From: a virus
IMG/VR virus record: IMGVR_UViG_3300046501_000558
Coordinates: 17,478 to 81,477 of that record
Reading direction: 5' to 3' (one strand)
Length of the DNA stretch: 64,000 nucleotides
A program made the position numbers and the translations under genes. Below the pieces are notes generated by a model. It had not been told where the DNA came from. It worked only from the letters and a program-made list of their open reading frames with translations, and did not search any database. This document shows positions 24,870 through 59,740 of this stretch, piece after piece; positions within the stretch are counted from its first letter, which is position 1; every line of letters starts with the position of its first letter.

Positions 24870-26078
24870 CTAATTAATTACAGAACAAAACTTATTATCT
24901 AAGTAATCTGCCCACCATTGCATCATTTTGGAACGGTGCTCAACATACTCAGCATGGTTGTATGTGCCGCGTACTTTGTTTTCGTCGGCATGTGAAAGTT
25001 GTGCTTCGATCCATTCGCGTTTAAATAATCCTGAATCATTTAGTACTGTGCTCATGGTTGCTCGTAATCCATGGGGAGATAATTCATCGTTTGTATATCC
25101 CATTCGACGTATAAGTTGACAGAAAACATTGACGCCCATTTGCTTATTTGCTTTGTAAGGGCTATTGAAAAGGTACTTTTCGCCAGCGCTCCAAGCCTCA
25201 GCTTCCTTAATAATTTCTATAACTTGGTCTGAAAGCGGGATTAGATATTCTGGAACATTTGGATCTATAAGAGCCAGTTTTCTAAGCTGCTTTACATTCT
25301 CAGGTGGGATTCGCCAAACCTTTTTATCTAAATCAAACTGAGTTATTTGTGCTTGTCGGACTTCGGCACTTCGAACACCGGTATATGCTAAAAGTCTCAA
25401 AGCACGTTTAGTAATTGGAAATGCTTCAGCTTGTTCAAGTCGCGGACCAAAATCACTAAGCTCTGAATCTCTTAAATGCGGGTAATTACGTTTTACTGTA
25501 TTGATTGCTATAAGTGATCTTAAATTGTCTGCAAGGTTGTATTCACAGTATTCATGCAGAACGGCGAATTTATAAATATCTTTAAGATAAGTACATGTCT
25601 TTTCGACCGTATTTTTTGCTTCTCGTACTTCAATTGATCTAATTAGTTGGATTAAATCTAATTTGGTCACTTCACTAAAAGTTTTTTCTCCTAAGGCTGG
25701 CAATATGTCAAAATCAAGTGAATTCCTAGAAGTCTTTATCATTCCAGCCCGAGGAATTTCACCAAGGTATTTTTTTTGTCGGAATGCATGCCAGCTTTCT
25801 GCCACATCTCCAAAAGTTAGAATCTTTGGTTTAATAATAGGTTCAACGCTTTTGTTTTTTTGAAAATTGTCTCTTAATGTGCGGGCTTCTTTTAGGCTAA
25901 TCTCTGGGTACATGCCAATTTTAACAAGTGGTCGTTTTCCCGATGAATCTGTATATCTAACTTTCCATGTTTTTTTCCCAGAGATGTTAATGTATAGATA
26001 TAAGCCATCACCGTCATTCACACAGAAAACTTCTGTTGACGGTTTGAGCTGGCGTATCTTAGTTTCGGTAAGAGCCAT
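24870..26078 (-). CDS. Tyrosine recombinase, P4-type integrase
   Basis: 402 aa. The N-terminal domain (residues 1-70, ALTETKIRQLKPS and DGDGLYLYI) is the arm-binding DUF4102 type of P4-like integrases. The catalytic domain has Arg236 (TGVRSAEVR), His336-x2-Arg339 (HGLRAT), His363 (LSHAD) and the nucleophile Tyr373. All active-site residues are present, so the enzyme should be active. P4-type integrases normally insert at tRNA or similar sites. In an element that also has Rep and ParA it may integrate occasionally, or resolve plasmid multimers. Confidence 0.88.
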   Translation of the reverse strand: MALTETKIRQLKPSTEVFCVNDGDGLYLYINISGKKTWKVRYTDSSGKRPLVKIGMYPEISLKEARTLRDNFQKNKSVEPIIKPKILTFGDVAESWHAFRQKKYLGEIPRAGMIKTSRNSLDFDILPALGEKTFSEVTKLDLIQLIRSIEVREAKNTVEKTCTYLKDIYKFAVLHEYCEYNLADNLRSLIAINTVKRNYPHLRDSELSDFGPRLEQAEAFPITKRALRLLAYTGVRSAEVRQAQITQFDLDKKVWRIPPENVKQLRKLALIDPNVPEYLIPLSDQVIEIIKEAEAWSAGEKYLFNSPYKANKQMGVNVFCQLIRRMGYTNDELSPHGLRATMSTVLNDSGLFKREWIEAQLSHADENKVRGTYNHAEYVEHRSKMMQWWADYLDNKFCSVIN

Positions 26079-26279: not shown

Positions 26280-26990
26280 TTATGACGCGGGAGCAAGACA
26301 GAATGATAAGTAAGGATAACCATTGTCATTTTGTGCAATGTAAGAAGCAGAAGGGTTTGCAGGTATTTCAAATGTTGAAGGCTCACTAGCGTCTACAATC
26401 TCAATTCGAATACGAACATATTTATCAGATGTATTTTCGAAACGGGCACCTTGGGCACCATTGTAGTAACCGTTAACGTTTGCCACTGGTTGCCATGCAG
26501 CATCTACAGCTGTAAGAACTACACCATGAACGTTCATTAGGTAATTTTTAAAATCATCACCTCTAAATATTCTAGTATTAGAGAATTGATCGTCATTCAC
26601 GTATAAGAAATAAGTACCTCCATCTGAAAGAATTTGTGCCCCCATTCTTGAAGTGGCATTAGCACAACCGATAGGTATTACCGTATCGCCATTATTACCT
26701 GTATTTCCGTTATTGATGGGTTCTCCATTTACTCGCAATACTTGAATGCTCGGTATATTGGTATCAAGTGCATCTTGTACGGCGACATAATCTAGATTTT
26801 TAGGATCAAAGCCAAGCATACCGCGAATGTTTGCTTTAGTAATAGTCATTGGTCGATCTAAGCGACCACGCTTAAACTTACCGATCAGAATATTATTAAT
26901 TGATGCGGATCCTGTAGAACCTGTTTTGTCTGTAACGCCCTGGTATTGGATACCGGGTTCGTTGCCTAAAATTGATGTGATTTGTGGCAT
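26280..26990 (-). CDS. Sheath-module protein A: conserved N-terminal anchor with variable C-terminal domain
   Basis: 236 aa. Residues 1-86 are nearly identical to the start of the protein at 59081 and clearly related to that at 27235. This part (GKFKRGRLDRPMTITK, then YVAVQDALDTNIPSIQVLRV) recalls the N-terminal domain of contractile-tail sheath proteins. Residues 90-105 are an Asn/Gly-rich linker. The C-terminal 130 residues look like a beta-rich adhesin or decoration domain, unlike that of the paralogue. I infer a virion surface or tail-attached protein. It has its own late-promoter-like box and terminator. Confidence 0.55.
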   Translation of the reverse strand: MPQITSILGNEPGIQYQGVTDKTGSTGSASINNILIGKFKRGRLDRPMTITKANIRGMLGFDPKNLDYVAVQDALDTNIPSIQVLRVNGEPINNGNTGNNGDTVIPIGCANATSRMGAQILSDGGTYFLYVNDDQFSNTRIFRGDDFKNYLMNVHGVVLTAVDAAWQPVANVNGYYNGAQGARFENTSDKYVRIRIEIVDASEPSTFEIPANPSASYIAQNDNGYPYLSFCLAPAS

Positions 26991-27100: not shown

Positions 27101-27528
27101 CTATATTTTAATAAGTTGCCCCATCTTATTTACCACATTAAAAGTAATTTTTCCGATCGTAGCCCCTTCGGTGCCATTAGTCATTCTATAAGTCATTGAG
27201 GTTCTGGCTCTCCTGGTTGTAGTTCAGGTTGCGGCTAGGGATCTTCTGGGAAAAATTGTTCGGTATAAATGCGTAAAACTGATATTTCAGCGATCCCATT
27301 ATCTAGAGCATCATGAACGGCAACGTAATCAGGATTCCAAGGCTCATGACCTAATACGGCGCGAACATTGGCTTTTGTCACTTTCATTGGCGTATCAAGA
27401 CGACCGCGTTTAAATTTTCCAATAAAGACATTGTTAATAGGAGCTTTAGGGGCGTTATCATCGATAACGTTTACCCCATTGTTTTGAATTCCTGATTCGT
27501 TTTGAAGATAGGTAGTTATATGAGCCAT
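27101..27528 (-). pseudogene. Broken third copy of the sheath-module protein
   Basis: The intact part (27235-27528, from MAHITTYL) repeats the 86-residue anchor module and ends at a TAG just after LRIYTEQFFPEDP. Beyond that stop the same frame continues with a Pro/Glu linker (PQPELQPGEPEPQ) to a TGA at 27195. Another frame then encodes a 31-residue tail, MTYRMTNGTEGATIGK to GQLIKI, which ends at 27101. So a linker and a C-terminal fragment remain but are split by a stop and a frame change. The short 97-aa product could still be made, as the promoterless module follows the lysozyme terminator. Confidence 0.55.
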
Positions 27529-27544
27529 GATTATCAAATAAATG

Positions 27545-35754: not shown

Positions 35755-37581
35755 ATGACTACTGACGAAAAATCAAAAAGGGATTTATTTTTAGAATGTG
35801 ATTGGACTTATGATCTTGAAAAATATAAAAACTATAACTACACATCACTTTGTTTGAGCCTTCATCAAGCTGCAACTGGTATGCAGGAATCGGGAAAGGT
35901 TAAACATTATGAAGTTCTTTTATTTCTTTCATATATTGCATCTCTATCTTTTGTTCCTGAAAGACAACATGAGCCATATAAGCATGCTTCAGAGAGTCTA
36001 AGGGAACAATTAGCGGCTTTTAGGCCAGACCATATGATAGATGAAGATTTTATATTTTTAGAGTCAATTTTAGATGATGTTAAACATCCCCTGCTAAAGG
36101 CAAGATTAGCGGATTTGCTATGGGTTTATAATAAACCTAAAAATCATCTTCATGCCCGTAAAGCAATTGATGCTTATATAGAATTACCCATAGATCACCA
36201 TTGGAATGATGGTATTGATATAGGTTGGGACCGAGCGATAACGTTAAGTTTGCAATTAAGAGATAATTCTCGTTTAGATAGGATTAAAGCAGAAATGTTT
36301 GATGCTCTTAAAAGAGAAATATCAAATCCTGAAAATCATTTTTTAAGCCTTACAATTGGGAGAATGCTTAATAGAACTGGGATAGATCAAGATTATAGAG
36401 AGCTGCTTGCAGAATTATTTTTTACTCATGGGGAATGTTTGAAAGGCAAACATAGTTATGGGTTAGCGAGACAATTCTATGATTTGGCAGTTAAGAAATA
36501 TTATCAGGTTAAAGATGAAGAGAGCTGGGCTAATTCACTATTAGCCATTGCAGAATGTTTTGAATTGGAAGCTGAAGCTTATCCAACCCCAATGCAAGCT
36601 CATGAATCATATGAAAGAGCATTACTTGCTTATAGAGCAATTCCTAACGAGAATCGAAAAAAATTAGGGATAGAAGATAAAATAGACGATATTCAGAGAA
36701 AAATAGCCCAAGCTGGTAAAGACTCCTTAGCTTATATGGTTCGAATTCCATATCCAAAGGCTGATTTCTCAGATATTGAGTTAGAGGCCAAAAACTATGT
36801 TAGTGAAAAGAGTGCGCCAATTAATGCTTTATTTTCTTTTGTAAAATTATACCAAGGTCCTAATTGTGAAGAGATTGAAAATATTGCAAAACAATCGTTA
36901 CAACAATCATTTTTTTCAGGTTTATCACCAATAAAACTTTTAGATCGAGGGGGGCGTGTTTTAGCTAGAACTCCTGCAGCTCACAAATTTGGACCATTGG
37001 ACGGTTCAATTAATGAAGAAGCATTAGAAGATAAAATATACGAATTATTTAAATTAGAAGTTTCAAGAATTGTTCAGCATTTGATTATGCCTGCTTTAGA
37101 GCAACTAACTCATGAATATAGAATTAGCAAAGATCTATTAAGGGCTATTTGTGAAGCATCACCGATTATTCCACGTGACCGGATCATGTTAATGGTTGAT
37201 GCACTTTGGTATGGGTTTGAATACGAATTTGCTGCTTCAATACACTTACTTTGCCCACAAATTGAAAATATAGTCAGAAATGAGTTAGATAAAAGAGGTG
37301 CAATAACCCTAACACGTGGTGAGGATGGCGCAACAAATGAAAATGGATTAAGTACATTAATGAAAGACCCCAAAATTGTAGATATTTTGGGTAAAAATCT
37401 TTCTTTTGAAATTGAATTTATTTTTTGTAAAGTACATGGTTTTAACTTAAGAAATAATGTTGCTCATGGTTTATTGGATGATGCTGAGGCTACAAGTTCA
37501 GTTGGATGCATATACGCTTGGTGGATGACGTTAAGAATAATTTTAAAGAACTGGCATTATAAACAAATTAACTTTGGTTGA
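35755..37581 (+). CDS. DUF4209-like large protein with HEPN-type RNxxxH motif
   Basis: 608 aa. The long N-terminal part (residues 1-400) is helical and may form TPR-like repeats. Near residues 560-580 is LRNNVAHGLL, an R-x4-H motif typical of HEPN ribonucleases and of DUF4209 proteins. Many HEPN proteins cut RNA in toxin or abortive-infection systems. It is a single plus-strand gene with separate control, AT-rich like its neighbours, and resembles cargo. I infer an anti-phage or exclusion role, not proven. Confidence 0.6.
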   Translation: MTTDEKSKRDLFLECDWTYDLEKYKNYNYTSLCLSLHQAATGMQESGKVKHYEVLLFLSYIASLSFVPERQHEPYKHASESLREQLAAFRPDHMIDEDFIFLESILDDVKHPLLKARLADLLWVYNKPKNHLHARKAIDAYIELPIDHHWNDGIDIGWDRAITLSLQLRDNSRLDRIKAEMFDALKREISNPENHFLSLTIGRMLNRTGIDQDYRELLAELFFTHGECLKGKHSYGLARQFYDLAVKKYYQVKDEESWANSLLAIAECFELEAEAYPTPMQAHESYERALLAYRAIPNENRKKLGIEDKIDDIQRKIAQAGKDSLAYMVRIPYPKADFSDIELEAKNYVSEKSAPINALFSFVKLYQGPNCEEIENIAKQSLQQSFFSGLSPIKLLDRGGRVLARTPAAHKFGPLDGSINEEALEDKIYELFKLEVSRIVQHLIMPALEQLTHEYRISKDLLRAICEASPIIPRDRIMLMVDALWYGFEYEFAASIHLLCPQIENIVRNELDKRGAITLTRGEDGATNENGLSTLMKDPKIVDILGKNLSFEIEFIFCKVHGFNLRNNVAHGLLDDAEATSSVGCIYAWWMTLRIILKNWHYKQINFG

Positions 37582-37593
37582 GTTTTGCAGTAA

Positions 37594-37614
37594 TTGCCCT
37601 CCGTAGAGGGCTTT
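37594..37614. terminator. Terminator between convergent genes
   Basis: GCCCTC (37596-37601) pairs with GAGGGC (37606-37611) over CGTA, followed by TTT. Confidence 0.6.
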
Positions 37615-38185
37615 AATCACAGCTTTTTAGCTCAAATGCAGCCACTAAAAAATATCTAAATATACTTTCTCTTTGGTCAAGGTTATCTGTACTTAGTAGT
37701 TGCGTTAAGGTTCCATCCATTATATATAACAACAATAGTGCATCATGTTTGGTTGCACTTACTTTTATCGGGCTAATCAGTTCAAAAATCTCATTTATTA
37801 ACCATTTTCTATATGAAATGATAAAATTATAAGCATCAGGAAAATCATTTTTAATTTCATAAATTCCTTTGAAGAGTAAGAAATAATCACCTTTCAAGTC
37901 GGTATGAGTAAAAAATATCTTTTTTAGTTTATCAACTTCCGAAATATCATGAGTTAAATCTTTGATATGAATGATTTGTTCGGTTAGTTTTTCTTTTTGA
38001 TATTTTACACATGCATTTATTAATTTCTCTTTGGAGGGGAAATATTTATAAAGTGTCATTTTAGAAATACTTCCCTCATTTACAATTGTATTTACGCCTA
38101 CATTATGAAATCCATATTGAGTGAAAAGCATGCAAGATGTTTGAAATAAATTTAATATTTTATTATTACTTATTTTGTTAGACAT
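37613..38185 (-). CDS. TetR-family regulator
   Basis: 190 aa from the second Met at 38185 (MSNKISNNKIL); the frame extends to 38209. The helix-turn-helix is ILNLFQTSCMLFTQYGFHNVG then ISKMTLYKYFPSKEKLI, here quoted in parts, the standard TetR N-terminus. The C-terminal ligand domain is all helical. Its target is unknown. It faces away from the folded RNA candidate and may control that or its own promoter. Confidence 0.8.
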   Translation of the reverse strand: MSNKISNNKILNLFQTSCMLFTQYGFHNVGVNTIVNEGSISKMTLYKYFPSKEKLINACVKYQKEKLTEQIIHIKDLTHDISEVDKLKKIFFTHTDLKGDYFLLFKGIYEIKNDFPDAYNFIISYRKWLINEIFELISPIKVSATKHDALLLLYIMDGTLTQLLSTDNLDQRESIFRYFLVAAFELKSCD

Positions 38186-38209: not shown

Positions 38210-38429
38210 TCAGTAAAAAATACATGTAGAAACTCGTTAGGTTGTGATTAAACACAACCCAAAATTAATATTGGATTTATTGAAATAAAACGACAAAAAG
38301 TTTGGCAACAATAAAATTGCCAAACAAAAAATAATTACTAAGTTGTGTTGTATTTAATGATCACGGCGGTAGTTCTCCAATACTTAAATTTGGATTTCTG
38401 CCATGACATTATGAAACTGGTGGCAGAAC
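38210..38429. other. Intergenic DNA, nothing recognised
   Basis: AT-rich DNA between the TetR gene and the RNA candidate. I see no gene, terminator or repeat that I can support. Confidence 0.5.
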
Positions 38430-38605
38430 GGAAGAAGGTTGACGGACCAGTAACTCTCTACCAGCACACCCGAAGGTGTCCCTCTCCCGTCCTACCGCTA
38501 CGAGAGGGGACGAGTGGTACATCTAAGACAAATCCTCAGAAAAGGATAAGCTCTGATGCGAGAGTTAAACAGTCCGTCAAGACTGCCTGGCAATGTGGCC
38601 AGAAT
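38430..38605 (+). ncRNA. Highly structured RNA candidate
   Basis: A GC-rich island in AT-rich DNA with nested perfect complementarity. P1 is TTGACGGAC (38439-38447) with GTCCGTCAA (38572-38580). P2 is TAACTCTC (38451-38458) with GAGAGTTA (38560-38567). P3 is TACCA (38459-38463) with TGGTA (38515-38519). P4 is ACACC-CGAA-GGTGT (38466-38479). P5 is CCCTCTC (38480-38486) with GAGAGGG (38502-38508). P6 is TCAGA/TCTGA (38536-38540 / 38552-38556). A further hairpin CTGGC/GCCAG lies at 38587-38602. The helices fit together as one multibranched fold. I do not recognise the class. Strand is uncertain because the stems read on both. Confidence 0.5.
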
Positions 38606-38694
38606 GTGAAGAATAATGATCGGTTTAACAACTGTCAATAATTCATATTTTTTAATTGTAAAAAAAAATTGACAATAAATAAATACTTAACAAT

Positions 38695-39342
38695 CTAAGT
38701 GTTCTGTATTTGGTCGTATATGGATTGATCTTTAGTCTGAAAAAACACATCAAAGCTTTGACTCATTAGCCAATCTTGTTGACTTTGTTTTTTAAAAATC
38801 GGAGCTAAGCGCTTAATATAGTAATTAATCCATTCATTATTATTATTAAAAAAAGCCCTATCTTTTAAATCTTCGTATAAATCTTGCAAATTGACTGCAA
38901 TCGTTTCAATAGAAGGATTAAATAACCATATGGTTATATCCATTGGCTCCGCTGCCGTGACCTGATACTTATCTTCAGGGTTAAATGCTTCAATCCGATA
39001 AAGCTGTGCGCCTTTTTCAGTGTACGATGAATACATAAGTTTAGTATTTGCAACTTGATAATAGCCCTTACCAATTTCAAATTCACGTAATTTTCTGGAA
39101 ACATCTAAGCAATCTGATAAATATTGAGGTGGTAGATCTTTATAATTATTAAATATTTTTACACTTCGACTAATAACATAATATTCACCTGTGCCTGTAA
39201 TTATCCCTTTTTTCCATAGAAACATTTTTGAGAGATTTCCATTAGATATATTTAAAGATCCATCATTTGATATAGTAACTTTCTTATTATCTGAAGCAAT
39301 GATAATGCTATCGTTTAATTGAATTGCAACAATAAATGTCAT
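38695..39342 (-). CDS. Ntn-hydrolase/proteasome-like hypothetical protein
   Basis: 215 aa from the Met at 39342 (MTFIVAIQLNDSIIIASDN); the frame extends to 39363. The start resembles proteasome-type Ntn-hydrolases (strand, then IIIASD), but there is no clear N-terminal Thr/Ser/Cys nucleophile next to the Met besides Thr2. Such proteins occur next to type VI effector genes in Acinetobacter in my memory. It is divergent from the VgrG-tip gene at 39439. Function uncertain. Confidence 0.5.
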   Translation of the reverse strand: MTFIVAIQLNDSIIIASDNKKVTISNDGSLNISNGNLSKMFLWKKGIITGTGEYYVISRSVKIFNNYKDLPPQYLSDCLDVSRKLREFEIGKGYYQVANTKLMYSSYTEKGAQLYRIEAFNPEDKYQVTAAEPMDITIWLFNPSIETIAVNLQDLYEDLKDRAFFNNNNEWINYYIKRLAPIFKKQSQQDWLMSQSFDVFFQTKDQSIYDQIQNT

Positions 39343-39438
39343 AAAGAAGGTGGAATTAATCACGTTTAAATACTATTATTATGCAGATTATAGTTTAATT
39401 TTAAATCTTTTTAATAAAATAATAGGTAATTCTTAATC

Positions 39439-39639
39439 ATGGCTGGTGGTTCACAGATCATTATCAATAAAAGCGGTATTACTGTTATTACGCCGTCTAA
39501 ATTCGAGGTTAAAGCAGGTCAGCATCTATTTAAGCCCGGTGCTCAAGTACAAATGCCTCAGATTGCACTTCCCCAACCTATTTGTATTGAATGCCTTGTG
39601 AAAGCGGCCAAAGAAGGTGCAGGGATCGTAAGAAGATGA
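39439..39639 (+). CDS. Orphan C-terminal piece of a VgrG-like protein
   Basis: 66 aa. GGSQIIINKSGITVITP then FEVKAGQHLFKPGAQVQMP is typical of the C-terminal beta-helix end (DUF2345) of type VI secretion VgrG proteins. The gp27/gp5-like body that should precede it is absent: there is a start codon with an AGGT box and no open frame upstream. It appears to be the end of a vgrG gene brought along with the effector cassette. It may still be expressed as a small peptide. It overlaps the next gene by about 15 bp. Confidence 0.6.
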   Translation: MAGGSQIIINKSGITVITPSKFEVKAGQHLFKPGAQVQMPQIALPQPICIECLVKAAKEGAGIVRR

Positions 39640-40133
39640 GTTTTAAGAATCAAAATTTAGAAAGTTTTATTGCTAATCATCATAAAGATGGACAATTATT
39701 TTTGCTTGTCGATGGCGCACAGATTGACCACGACCATATATCAAATTTAGAAGACTTGTACGGCGATTGTTTCTACTTATTTCAAGGTACATATGAAGAA
39801 GAAGCCTTTCAGTATGGCCCTATATTGTTCGATTTAAGTCAGTTAAATCTAAAGCAAGTAGAAAGCCAAATTAAGCTCATGAAATCCAAGGATTCTATGA
39901 TTTTGATTAAAAGTAAATTAGACATTAAGCAATTGAAAAATAAGCTTCTTGAAAAGCTCTATATTGAACTCGATGACGGCGGCATAGGTATTCTTCGTTA
40001 TTACGATCCACGTGTGTTAAATCGCCTCTCTCTCATCTTTACCAGTGAACAAAAAAAGCAATTGCTTGAAGGCTTTGAGTCCATTTCTTTTATGCTCAAC
40101 GAATTAAGCTATGAGTTGAAATACAATGATTAA
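39636..40133 (+). CDS. DUF4123 type VI effector adaptor (Tap/Tec-like)
   Basis: 165 aa from the ATG at 39636 (MSFKNQNLESF), a 4-bp overlap with the VgrG piece; the frame extends upstream to 39591. DUF4123 features are LFLLVDGAQID at the start, YLFQGTYEEEAFQYGPILFDL, and GGIGILRYYDPRVL near residue 140. Such adaptors load an effector onto the VgrG tip of the type VI spike. It sits between the VgrG piece and the toxin gene, the normal order. Confidence 0.75.
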   Translation: MSFKNQNLESFIANHHKDGQLFLLVDGAQIDHDHISNLEDLYGDCFYLFQGTYEEEAFQYGPILFDLSQLNLKQVESQIKLMKSKDSMILIKSKLDIKQLKNKLLEKLYIELDDGGIGILRYYDPRVLNRLSLIFTSEQKKQLLEGFESISFMLNELSYELKYND

Positions 40134-40470
40134 GTTAGATAAAAATCAGATTGATAGCCTTGAGAAAGTAAAAGATAGAGAAGAACTCTGTGAAAAAATT
40201 TATCAGTATTTAGTAGATAAAAAGGAATCTTTCAAAGCCTACCCGGTTAATTATGAACAGCTGAAGCCTGATATATACAAGAGCTTTGATTTATTGATAT
40301 CGCTTTTATTGACGGACAATGAGGTCATTTGTCAGTTGATTGTATGGAACACAATCATGAGAAAAGGTGTTCTAAATGATCCTGGTATTCAAAGCTTTGT
40401 TAAAGGCTCAAATGCCCGTGGAAAAGACCTAATAGCAGCTTTTGAATATTACGAACTGAGAGATAAATAA
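40126..40470 (+). CDS. Small protein in the type VI cassette, 114 aa
   Basis: Helical acidic protein overlapping the adaptor gene by 8 bp. It lies between the adaptor and the toxin. It may be an accessory chaperone of the effector (similar genes of unknown family occur there) or a diverged immunity protein. Confidence 0.6.
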   Translation: MIKLDKNQIDSLEKVKDREELCEKIYQYLVDKKESFKAYPVNYEQLKPDIYKSFDLLISLLLTDNEVICQLIVWNTIMRKGVLNDPGIQSFVKGSNARGKDLIAAFEYYELRDK

Positions 40471-40471
40471 T

Positions 40472-41110
40472 ATGTGGGGTTTGATTGCACGAGGATTAGC
40501 GACCGCTGGCGCGAGAGTTGCCGCCCCTGCTGCTGGTGAAGTTGTAGCGACTCAAGGTGGGCGGGTGATTGCTACTGAAGCTGCAAAGGGTATGGCTACG
40601 ATTGTTTTAGCGAAAGAAGTAAGTAAAGACATAACAAAACAACAGCGTTGTAATAAATGCGAGCCTTACCAAAGAGGTAATAAACATGAAATTGAACGCT
40701 CAATGGGCAATGAAATTAATACACAATATCAGTTCAAAATTGCCAACCTATCTAGCTATCCTTTAACGTTTAGAGTGTCCGAACCTTTTTTAAAAACGGG
40801 GAATAAAAAGCCAACTACAAAGGTCCAAGAATGGGTAGTTGGAGGGGTTTCATTTGATGGGTTATGGCCTATGGAATGTATTTTAGTTGAGGCAAAAGGA
40901 AGATATGCCCAATTTTTGGACCCTAAAATGAAAGAGTTCATTACAGATAATGTTTTTAAACTTATGGTTAAAGAAGCTAAGAGCCAAACGGCCGTTGTTT
41001 TGACGCTCAAGGGGGCTAAATTACAATGGTATTTTTATGAAAAAGAAACCAAGGATTATGTAGATGACCTTCTTTTTAATTCGGTTCATACAATTTTTAT
41101 GCCTATGTAA
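40472..41110 (+). CDS. Type VI effector with Tox-REase-5-like nuclease domain
   Basis: 212 aa. Residues 1-50 are Ala/Gly-rich and hydrophobic (RGLATAGARVAAPAAG), the type of leader found in spike-delivered toxins. Two cysteines follow (RCNKCEPY). The C-terminal domain has FDGLWPMECILVEAKGRY near residues 125-145, with Asp, Glu and Lys as in the PD-(D/E)xK Tox-REase-5 fold (E-x-K written EAKG). It should degrade DNA of a neighbouring cell. The preceding gene and the following immunity gene complete a cassette like TseT-TsiT of Pseudomonas. Confidence 0.7.
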   Translation: MWGLIARGLATAGARVAAPAAGEVVATQGGRVIATEAAKGMATIVLAKEVSKDITKQQRCNKCEPYQRGNKHEIERSMGNEINTQYQFKIANLSSYPLTFRVSEPFLKTGNKKPTTKVQEWVVGGVSFDGLWPMECILVEAKGRYAQFLDPKMKEFITDNVFKLMVKEAKSQTAVVLTLKGAKLQWYFYEKETKDYVDDLLFNSVHTIFMPM

Positions 41111-59080: not shown

Positions 59081-59740
59081 TTAACGTGGCTCATAAGCAC
59101 AAAGCTCTAAGTTATCGATTAATTTTATGGTGCTATAAACTGGATCATTCAAACTATTCGTACTATTACTTTGCAGAACGAGGCTCGCCGTTAAATTAAT
59201 TTTTAAACAATCATTCGTAGTGTTTTGAAGATAAATTGTTCCGTTTTCGTCTGAACTCAATGAGTAGGATACTATTTCATAAATATTGTGAGCTTCTGCA
59301 AAAATTGAATTTAAACCATCCATAATTGAATAGGATGATGTACTAGCTGTAATTCCATGAAAAACTTGATTATTTAAACTTAATGTATAAATAACCGATC
59401 CGTATTGTGTTGGATAATAAAGATTATAACTATTCGTTAATTTGTAAAAATCTGATTGGCAGTTACAACTAGGTATTGCAACTCGTAACACTTGAATACT
59501 AGGTATATTTGTATCAAGTGCATCTTGCACAGCAACATAGTCTAGATTCTTAGGATCATAGCCGAGCATTCCACGTATGTTGGCTTTGGTAATAGTCATC
59601 GGTCGATCTAAACGGCCACGCTTAAATTTTCCAACAAAGATATTATTTATCGGTGCGGATCCTGTAGATCCTGTTTTGTCTGTAACTCCGCTGTATTGAA
59701 TACCCGGTTCATTGCCTAAAATTGAAGTGATGTGTGGCAT
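59081..59740 (-). CDS. Sheath-module protein B: conserved anchor with different C-terminal domain
   Basis: 219 aa. Residues 1-86 almost match those of the 26280 protein, at DNA level as well over about 280 bp, while the rest is unrelated in sequence. The C-terminal 130 residues are polar, beta-rich and Asn/Ser-rich, with two cysteines near the joint (SCNCQSD). I infer a tail-bound surface protein. It has its own late-promoter-like box and precedes the glycosyltransferase gene by 14 bp. Confidence 0.55.
   Translation of the reverse strand: MPHITSILGNEPGIQYSGVTDKTGSTGSAPINNIFVGKFKRGRLDRPMTITKANIRGMLGYDPKNLDYVAVQDALDTNIPSIQVLRVAIPSCNCQSDFYKLTNSYNLYYPTQYGSVIYTLSLNNQVFHGITASTSSYSIMDGLNSIFAEAHNIYEIVSYSLSSDENGTIYLQNTTNDCLKINLTASLVLQSNSTNSLNDPVYSTIKLIDNLELCAYEPR

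Follow-up and report, generated by a model that had tools for sequence, protein, structure and literature searches.

A compact multibranched fold at positions 38430-38605 of the window (the whole 64-kb stretch of virus DNA analyzed here) was described in the initial annotation as an unrecognised RNA with a TetR gene on one side and type VI cargo on the other. This raises the question of which RNA is folded here, from which strand it is transcribed and what it does next to a regulator gene.

All described perfect stems could be located, namely a stem of 9 bp (38439-38447/38572-38580), a stem of 8 bp (38451-38458/38560-38567) and inner stems of 5-7 bp. The GC content at 38400-38599 was found to be 52%, compared to 25-35% around this island.

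Identification of a C4 antisense RNA on the minus strand

An Rfam search and a covariation analysis had been proposed for this locus, and both were carried out. The Rfam search gave a match to the family C4 antisense RNA (RF01695) at 38502-38416 (-), which covers the full model (1-87) with 51.4 bits (E-value 5.7e-7 for the whole window) at a curated gathering cut-off of 45 bits. It is the only Rfam family above its cut-off in the 64-kb window. Matches to pntA, PVT1_6 and mir-H1 were below the threshold and taken as chance. By family, the folded RNA is a P1-type C4 antisense RNA. It can no longer be called unrecognised, since the score exceeds the gathering cut-off, Weiss et al. (2016, PMC5320573) have described homologues as 'Group 1' sRNAs and Weinberg et al. 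(2010, PMC2864571) have listed a 'c4-a1b1' motif. The name of this motif points to the a1/b1 region that precedes C4, and the main text of that study only tabulates it, for gamma-proteobacteria and phages. The earlier view that the locus is not a retron or intron is in agreement with these results: no such Rfam match was found in the window, and none among the eight window proteins scanned, which include the neighbours.

Both strands are predicted to fold well. The energy is -61.9 kcal/mol for the plus strand (z -3.5) and -70.3 kcal/mol for the minus strand (z -4.4), and none of 200 shuffled sequences was as good in either case. Among the paired cells of 40 homologous leaders, read in minus-strand letters, 229 G-U and 10 A-C combinations were counted, and because of this asymmetry the RNA is assigned to the minus strand. 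The orientation of the Rfam match and the promoter also support this strand. A plus-strand RNA was ruled out by its weaker fold, the 229:10 asymmetry and the lack of an Rfam match on that strand. The only open reading frame over the fold (98 aa, 38345-38641, +) runs antisense to this RNA and was not accepted as a gene. The description as a structured non-coding RNA rather than a protein gene was correct.

The base pairs covary in the homologues (alignment of 40 sequences), so that with regard to covariation the refuting condition named in the initial annotation does not apply. For the three C4 stems, 98.6% (P1), 99.5% (P2) and 100% (P3) of the cells are paired, with two-sided changes in each stem. 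Taken together with two leader hairpins, 98.8% of the cells are paired and 17 pairs show two-sided changes, which was reached by none of 500 shuffles; at most 51% were paired when the stems were slid. A putative RNase P cut site (GGU) is located at 38496 (-), and a 3′ CCACC is also present.

Organization of the leader and the TetR gene

The RNA is more than a neighbor of the TetR gene. It does lie between this gene and the type VI-style cargo as had been noted, but forms the leader of the TetR gene itself. The real unit is larger than the described fold and extends from the promoter at 38638 to the end of the TetR gene at 37613. On the minus strand, the order is promoter, leader hairpin, a1, b1, C4, sequestered Shine-Dalgarno sequence, leader ORF, intrinsic terminator and TetR gene. 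The letters a and b follow the annotated P1 record. The following features were assigned:

38610-38638 (-): sigma-70 promoter with −35 TTGACA (38638-38633), 17-nt spacer and −10 TATTCT (38615-38610); 10 of 12 consensus matches
38587-38602 (-): leader hairpin CUGGCCacauuGCCAG (CUGGCC..GCCAG), 'Region 1' of the A. baumannii Group 1 sRNAs; alignment of 40 sequences
38574-38580 (-): a1 site UUGACGG on the leader hairpin CAGUC..GACUG, complement of a′; covariation with a′, equivalent site marked a1 in the P1 record
38560-38567 (-): b1 site UAACUCUC, complement of the C4 P3 loop b′; 8 of 8 positions match its own b′, not the b′ of relatives
38502-38511 (-): upstream strand GUCCCCUCUC, possible alternative partner of the 5′ strand of C4 P1 in a competing hairpin; cis versus cross energies
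38416-38502 (-): C4 antisense RNA with P1, P2 with a UUCG loop, and P3; RF01695 match, stems 98.6-100% paired in homologues
38451-38458 (-): b′ recognition loop (P3 loop) GAGAGUUA
38439-38445 (-): a′ recognition segment CCGUCAA at the P3-P1 junction
38396-38403 (-): UGGCAGAA, complement of the C4 P1 3′ strand (38428-38421), competing hairpin; cis versus cross energies
38375-38394 (-): Shine-Dalgarno sequence GGAG (38378-38375) of the leader ORF, predicted to pair with the anti-SD UCCAA (38394-38390)
38338-38364 (-): leader ORF GTG..TAG, 8 codons, MIIKYNTT; shortened relative of the conserved peptide MHIHYFLAAFAKSYNDTT
38295-38325 (-): intrinsic terminator with a 10-bp stem and U5 between leader ORF and TetR gene; 1 found, 0.3 expected
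37613-38185 (-): TetR-family regulator of 190 aa, ATG at 38185, presumed controlled gene; Pfam TetR_N (PF00440), 43.7 bits

The promoter scan alone is weak, with three promoter-like sites in the region compared to 2.4 expected by chance. A similarly placed TTGAC..TATNCT motif was identified upstream of most chromosomal homologues and of both phage-plasmid relatives. In the Region 1 hairpin, for which the loop consensus CACAUU has been described (PMC5320573), 100% of the cells are paired and two pairs show two-sided changes (40 sequences).

The predicted pairing probability of the Shine-Dalgarno sequence is 0.75 in the window and 0.91-1.0 in those homologues in which one was found. The leader ORF of the phage-plasmid relative L202 reads MHIQYKDTT (translated by eye). 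The chromosomal leader peptides are under purifying selection, with an N/S of 0.27 of neutral for the 18-aa type (type II) and 0.51 of neutral for the 30-aa type (type I; MRTNSS..LLAFAK..).

Complementarity between the leader and the C4 RNA

The fold drawn in the initial annotation is real, yet it is only one of two competing folds, the other being the C4 cloverleaf. Its 9-bp stem corresponds to a1:a′ and its 8-bp stem to b1:b′, which join the upstream leader to the recognition segments of C4. Complementarity of a′ and b′ to a1 and b1 upstream in the same transcript is characteristic of the C4 family and was found here.

The a1:a′ helix is paired in 96.7% of the cells with 37 double changes (40 sequences), compared to at most 34% when slid. 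One of its pairs is AU in 19, GC in 11 and CG in 10 sequences, with zero exceptions. The P3 loop (b′) is highly variable among loci, yet fits its own leader: for the TetR loci, the mean energy of the duplex between P3 loop and upstream leader was -10.3 kcal/mol in cis and -6.3 kcal/mol for mismatched combinations (0 of 2,000 permutations). The b′ loops of the three phage-plasmid versions (window, L001 and L202) are unrelated; each has a perfect complement of 8 to 10 nt in its own leader and of at most 6 nt in the other leaders. Elsewhere in the window, no combined a1-b1 target was found besides the leader and a mirror match at C4 itself.

The strands that compete for C4 P1 are likewise matched in cis. 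For the alternative at 38502-38511, the energy is -18.3 kcal/mol with the own partner and -16.2 kcal/mol in cross combinations (103 loci), and for the alternative at 38396-38403 it is -14.6 and -11.5 kcal/mol, respectively (43 TetR loci); none of 2,000 permutations was as good in either case. For the 345-nt leader of the window, thermodynamic prediction gives -105.4 kcal/mol for the C4 fold and -105.1 kcal/mol for the a1b1:a′b′ fold. By the same kind of prediction, 26 of 40 unprocessed TetR-type leaders favor the cis fold and 12 the C4 fold.

Comparison with immI of P1 and P7 and other C4-type RNAs

The immI region of P1 and P7 (c4-icd-ant) shares with the window the family score above the cut-off (68.8 bits for C4 of P1) and the P1/P2/P3 fold. 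The order promoter, a1/b1, C4, short ORF and regulator gene is also the same. In the P1 record, it reads promoter-a1/b1-C4-a2/b2-icd-ant, with b2 located just before icd. Translation of both icd and ant is blocked by C4 in P1, and ant expression apparently depends on icd. The untranslated mRNA is cut short by Rho.

Several differences were found. In P1, the controlled gene encodes the antirepressor Ant, whereas the unit in the window has a TetR gene (PF00440) instead. The leader ORF is 8 codons long compared to the 73 codons of icd, and an intrinsic terminator precedes the regulator gene, unlike in P1. In addition, the a2/b2 sites, which in P1 and P7 cover the ribosome-binding site of the ORF that follows, are absent from the window copy: the best duplex downstream of C4 (-19.1) was equalled by 66 of 300 shuffles. 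Since a2/b2 are missing, the P1 route cannot run here in exactly the same way. By analogy, the unit may work like immI, but it is not immI.

The same distinction divides the TetR loci of the genus. The 18 type I loci have a1/b1 and, downstream of C4, a2/b2, with b2 adjoining the Shine-Dalgarno sequence of the leader ORF, which is the arrangement of P1. The 25 type II loci, including the window, are without a2/b2, while a1 is kept in 24 of them. The match of the type II P3 loops to the downstream region is no better than that of shuffled sequence. Another prophage RNA likened to this element by description is IsrK of the Salmonella prophage Gifsy-1, which is both an sRNA and an mRNA and is linked to transcription termination (reviewed in PMC12197685).

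Linkage of C4 to TetR genes in Acinetobacter

A locus search based on TetR yielded one Acinetobacter contig and many unrelated TetRs, and the C4 model was used to gather loci instead. Of 60 Acinetobacter species sampled, 51 have matches to RF01695, with 1 to 24 per genome. Among 114 C4 loci from Acinetobacter, 43 are followed on the same strand by a TetR gene of the window's family at a distance of 177-629 nt; a divergent TetR gene of this family upstream of C4 was found in none of the 114. With the window TetR as query, the A. baumannii record W01 (NZ_CP077849) contains 13 relatives at 139-168 bits, the next best protein scoring 72, and C4 is located immediately upstream of 12 of the 13. C4 is thus tightly linked to one TetR family.

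The remaining loci of the genus include 27 in which C4 precedes a small cysteine-containing, lipoprotein-like gene, and others in which it precedes phage regulators with Rha or ORF6N domains, the classical prophage setting. In the class of 27 (L093, L095, L104, L108, L111, L121, L131, L133 and others), the downstream protein has 85-97 aa, appears secreted or lipoprotein-like and has no Pfam match. On either side of C4, the non-TetR loci as a group show strong complementarity to the P3 loop of the same locus.

A row of four C4 matches, one of which is below the cut-off, precedes a single TetR gene (907459-908042 of W01; L136). This row resembles the tandem sRNAs ABUWs066-069 of A. baumannii AB5075, an array of antisense RNAs at one locus. 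Two database records are also worth noting: NZ_CP077849.1, filed as the 3.66-Mb 'plasmid' pDETAB15 with 19 C4 matches, is evidently an A. baumannii chromosome, and CAKLQF02/CAKLQH02, filed as 'Acinetobacter phage MD-2021a', look like a whole bacterial assembly, with contigs of up to 378 kb, uvrB, entF and many C4 copies.

Relation to Group 1 sRNAs and the opaque/translucent switch

In A. baumannii AB5075, 21 C4-like 'Group 1' sRNAs were seen by RNA-seq (Weiss et al., 2016, PMC5320573). They are apparently cut at GGW, have RNase P-like 5′ ends, and processed RNAs of C4 size accumulate. They were described as phage-derived with unknown targets, and targets in trans were proposed (PMC5320573). 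The window element shares with them the Region 1 hairpin and C4 core, the multi-copy occurrence in Acinetobacter and the GG(W) processing site; unlike them, it is located on a phage-plasmid. A link between the Group 1 sRNAs and TetR genes is absent from the main text of that study.

The same strain has 11 related TetR regulators (TTTR) and a pseudogene (Perez-Varela et al., 2022, PMC9802203). All 11 produce translucent cells when overexpressed, and four are stochastically activated in the opaque/translucent switch. C4 antisense RNA is unmentioned in that study, which left the mechanism of TTTR activation open, and in 2024 the molecular events turning on the switch TetRs were called uncharacterised (PMC10845969).

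The numbers of both sets are similar, with 11 genes and a pseudogene in AB5075 and 13 relatives in W01, 12 of them with C4 and all within a sharp family boundary. When the 12 TTTR gene numbers were compared with the Group 1 sRNA coordinates of AB5075, the mean distance was 12 kb and none of 100,000 random sets was as close; this mapping uses interpolated gene numbers, not sequence. Because of the 12 versus 12 count and the interpolated positions, the TTTRs and the Group 1 sRNAs are indicated to be the same loci. In the literature searched, no paper joining the two was found; there may be overlap with an mBio paper of 2024, which reportedly describes control of the opaque/translucent switch by Rho. 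Such control would fit, and that paper may already contain part of the link.

We infer from count and interpolated position, not from sequence, that the chromosomal C4-linked TetRs are equivalent to the TTTR switch regulators. The window TetR belongs to the sharply bounded subfamily of these C4-linked chromosomal TetRs, its link to the TTTRs being made through counts and interpolated positions only. It is only 37-48% identical to the related Acinetobacter chromosomal TetRs. The ABUW_1645 gene set rises under azithromycin (PMC10878099), which would fit a leader that senses translation and has other explanations as well.

Phage-plasmid context and neighboring genes

The source virus record of 81,477 bp has portal, baseplate, Rep_3 initiator and ParA genes and is therefore a phage-plasmid. 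The C4-TetR unit and the adjoining DUF2345, DUF4123 and Tox-REase-5 genes are shared with the 82.6-kb A. oleivorans plasmid NZ_CP110255, and the unit was also found on an 88-kb IMG/VR contig.

The type VI-style cargo (39439-41110, +) consists of a 66-aa DUF2345/PAAR-like piece (below the cut-off), a DUF4123 adaptor and a Tox-REase-5 nuclease. Immunity genes likely come next, and the cargo is common to the A. oleivorans phage-plasmid. At 38695-39363 (-), a protein of 222 aa without a Pfam or PHROGs match is encoded, which is annotated as hypothetical in the A. oleivorans plasmid; its start MTFIVAIQLNDSIIIASDNK gives the impression of Ntn-hydrolase (proteasome-like) beta strands. A 608-aa DUF7380/DUF4209 protein (35755-37581, +; PHROG 31613, function unknown) is possibly a defense gene. 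Three minus-strand genes (26280-26990, 27235-27537 and 59081-59740) have the N-terminus ITSILGNEPGIQYxGVTDKTGSTG... in common and differ in their C-termini. Two of them adjoin a tyrosine-recombinase-like gene (24870-26078), and they are possibly exchangeable tail variants.

Proposed function of the leader

We consider it probable that the window element is an Acinetobacter 'C4-TetR' switch cassette carried on a phage-plasmid, in which the leader represses the TetR gene in a P1-like manner. The single promoter (38638-38610) would transcribe a1/b1, C4, the leader ORF, the terminator and then the TetR gene. The C4 part could fold into the cloverleaf, be excised by RNase P and act as an antisense RNA, or a′/b′ could pair with a1/b1 of its own leader. 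In the C4 family, processing by RNase P gives an RNA of about 77 nt, and in this phage it would take place at the putative GGU site. By analogy with P1, C4 would keep the leader ORF untranslated and transcription would stop before the TetR gene, so that the regulator would normally be off and on only occasionally. In type II copies, in which a1/b1 are the only target, C4 might act on nascent leaders as a feedback, or the cis folds might decide. Counting against the cassette are the leader ORF of just 8 codons with its GTG start, the missing a2/b2 and the interpolated mapping in AB5075.

That C4 is instead a free-standing sRNA acting in trans, either for superinfection immunity against related phage-plasmids or on host mRNAs, with TetR as a mere neighbor, appears quite improbable. 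C4 of P1 does work in trans (PMC12197685), trans targets were proposed for the Group 1 sRNAs (PMC5320573), and C4 precedes other genes elsewhere in the genus, the Rha and ORF6N regulators among them. On the other hand, the same-strand association with a single TetR family (43 loci; 12 of 13 relatives in one chromosome), the common promoter, the conserved leader ORF and the complementarity tuned to the own leader are not expected for a free-standing sRNA, and apart from a mirror match at C4 the combined a1-b1 target in the window is limited to the leader. The element is also intergenic and present in up to 24 copies per genome with 70-80% identity, as would also be true of a non-coding repeat dispersed in the DNA (MITE- or REP-like), with palindromes that only resemble an RNA. 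Such a repeat is almost certainly not what is seen here; it is refuted by the strand-specific tolerance of G-U (229 versus 10 A-C) and the orientation bias towards the downstream gene, besides the C4 family match and the promoter.

A cis-only attenuator, in which the antisense role was lost in type II copies and the competing leader folds alone decide on read-through into TetR, would fit the 25 of 43 TetR loci, the window among them, that have no a2/b2 after C4, the equal predicted energies of the two folds and the competing hairpins matched in cis on both strands of P1. We give it a low probability: the C4 cloverleaf and the GGU processing site are conserved, processed C4-sized Group 1 sRNAs accumulate in A. 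baumannii (PMC5320573), and the on/off state can be read in trans from promoter fusions on plasmids (PMC9802203), in line with a diffusible factor. A more speculative extension of the C4-TetR cassette, which we regard as unlikely, is that the leader works as a bistable memory at the RNA level, with self-sustaining off and on states. In the off state, free C4 would bind a1/b1 of new transcripts, which would then adopt the C4 fold and release more C4. In the on state, without C4, the leader would fold on itself (a1:a′ and b1:b′), no C4 would be formed and transcription would reach the TetR gene. If this were true, a dozen cassettes with private b′/b1 codes would explain a stochastic and combinatorial TTTR switch, and phage-plasmids would carry a mobile version of its cassette.

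Implications for the colony switch of Acinetobacter

For the C4-TetR cassette as proposed here, a phage immunity RNA would have been reused to run a host-type regulator. The Group 1 sRNAs and the TetR switch regulators are indicated to be components of the same loci, with an individual antisense code for each. The C4-TetR unit, present in about a dozen copies per A. baumannii chromosome, probably underlies the switch between virulent and avirulent colonies, and the C4 leader on this mobile TetR switch gene is likely a key to the chromosomal switch system. A phase switch of clinical relevance would thereby gain a mechanism that can be tested.
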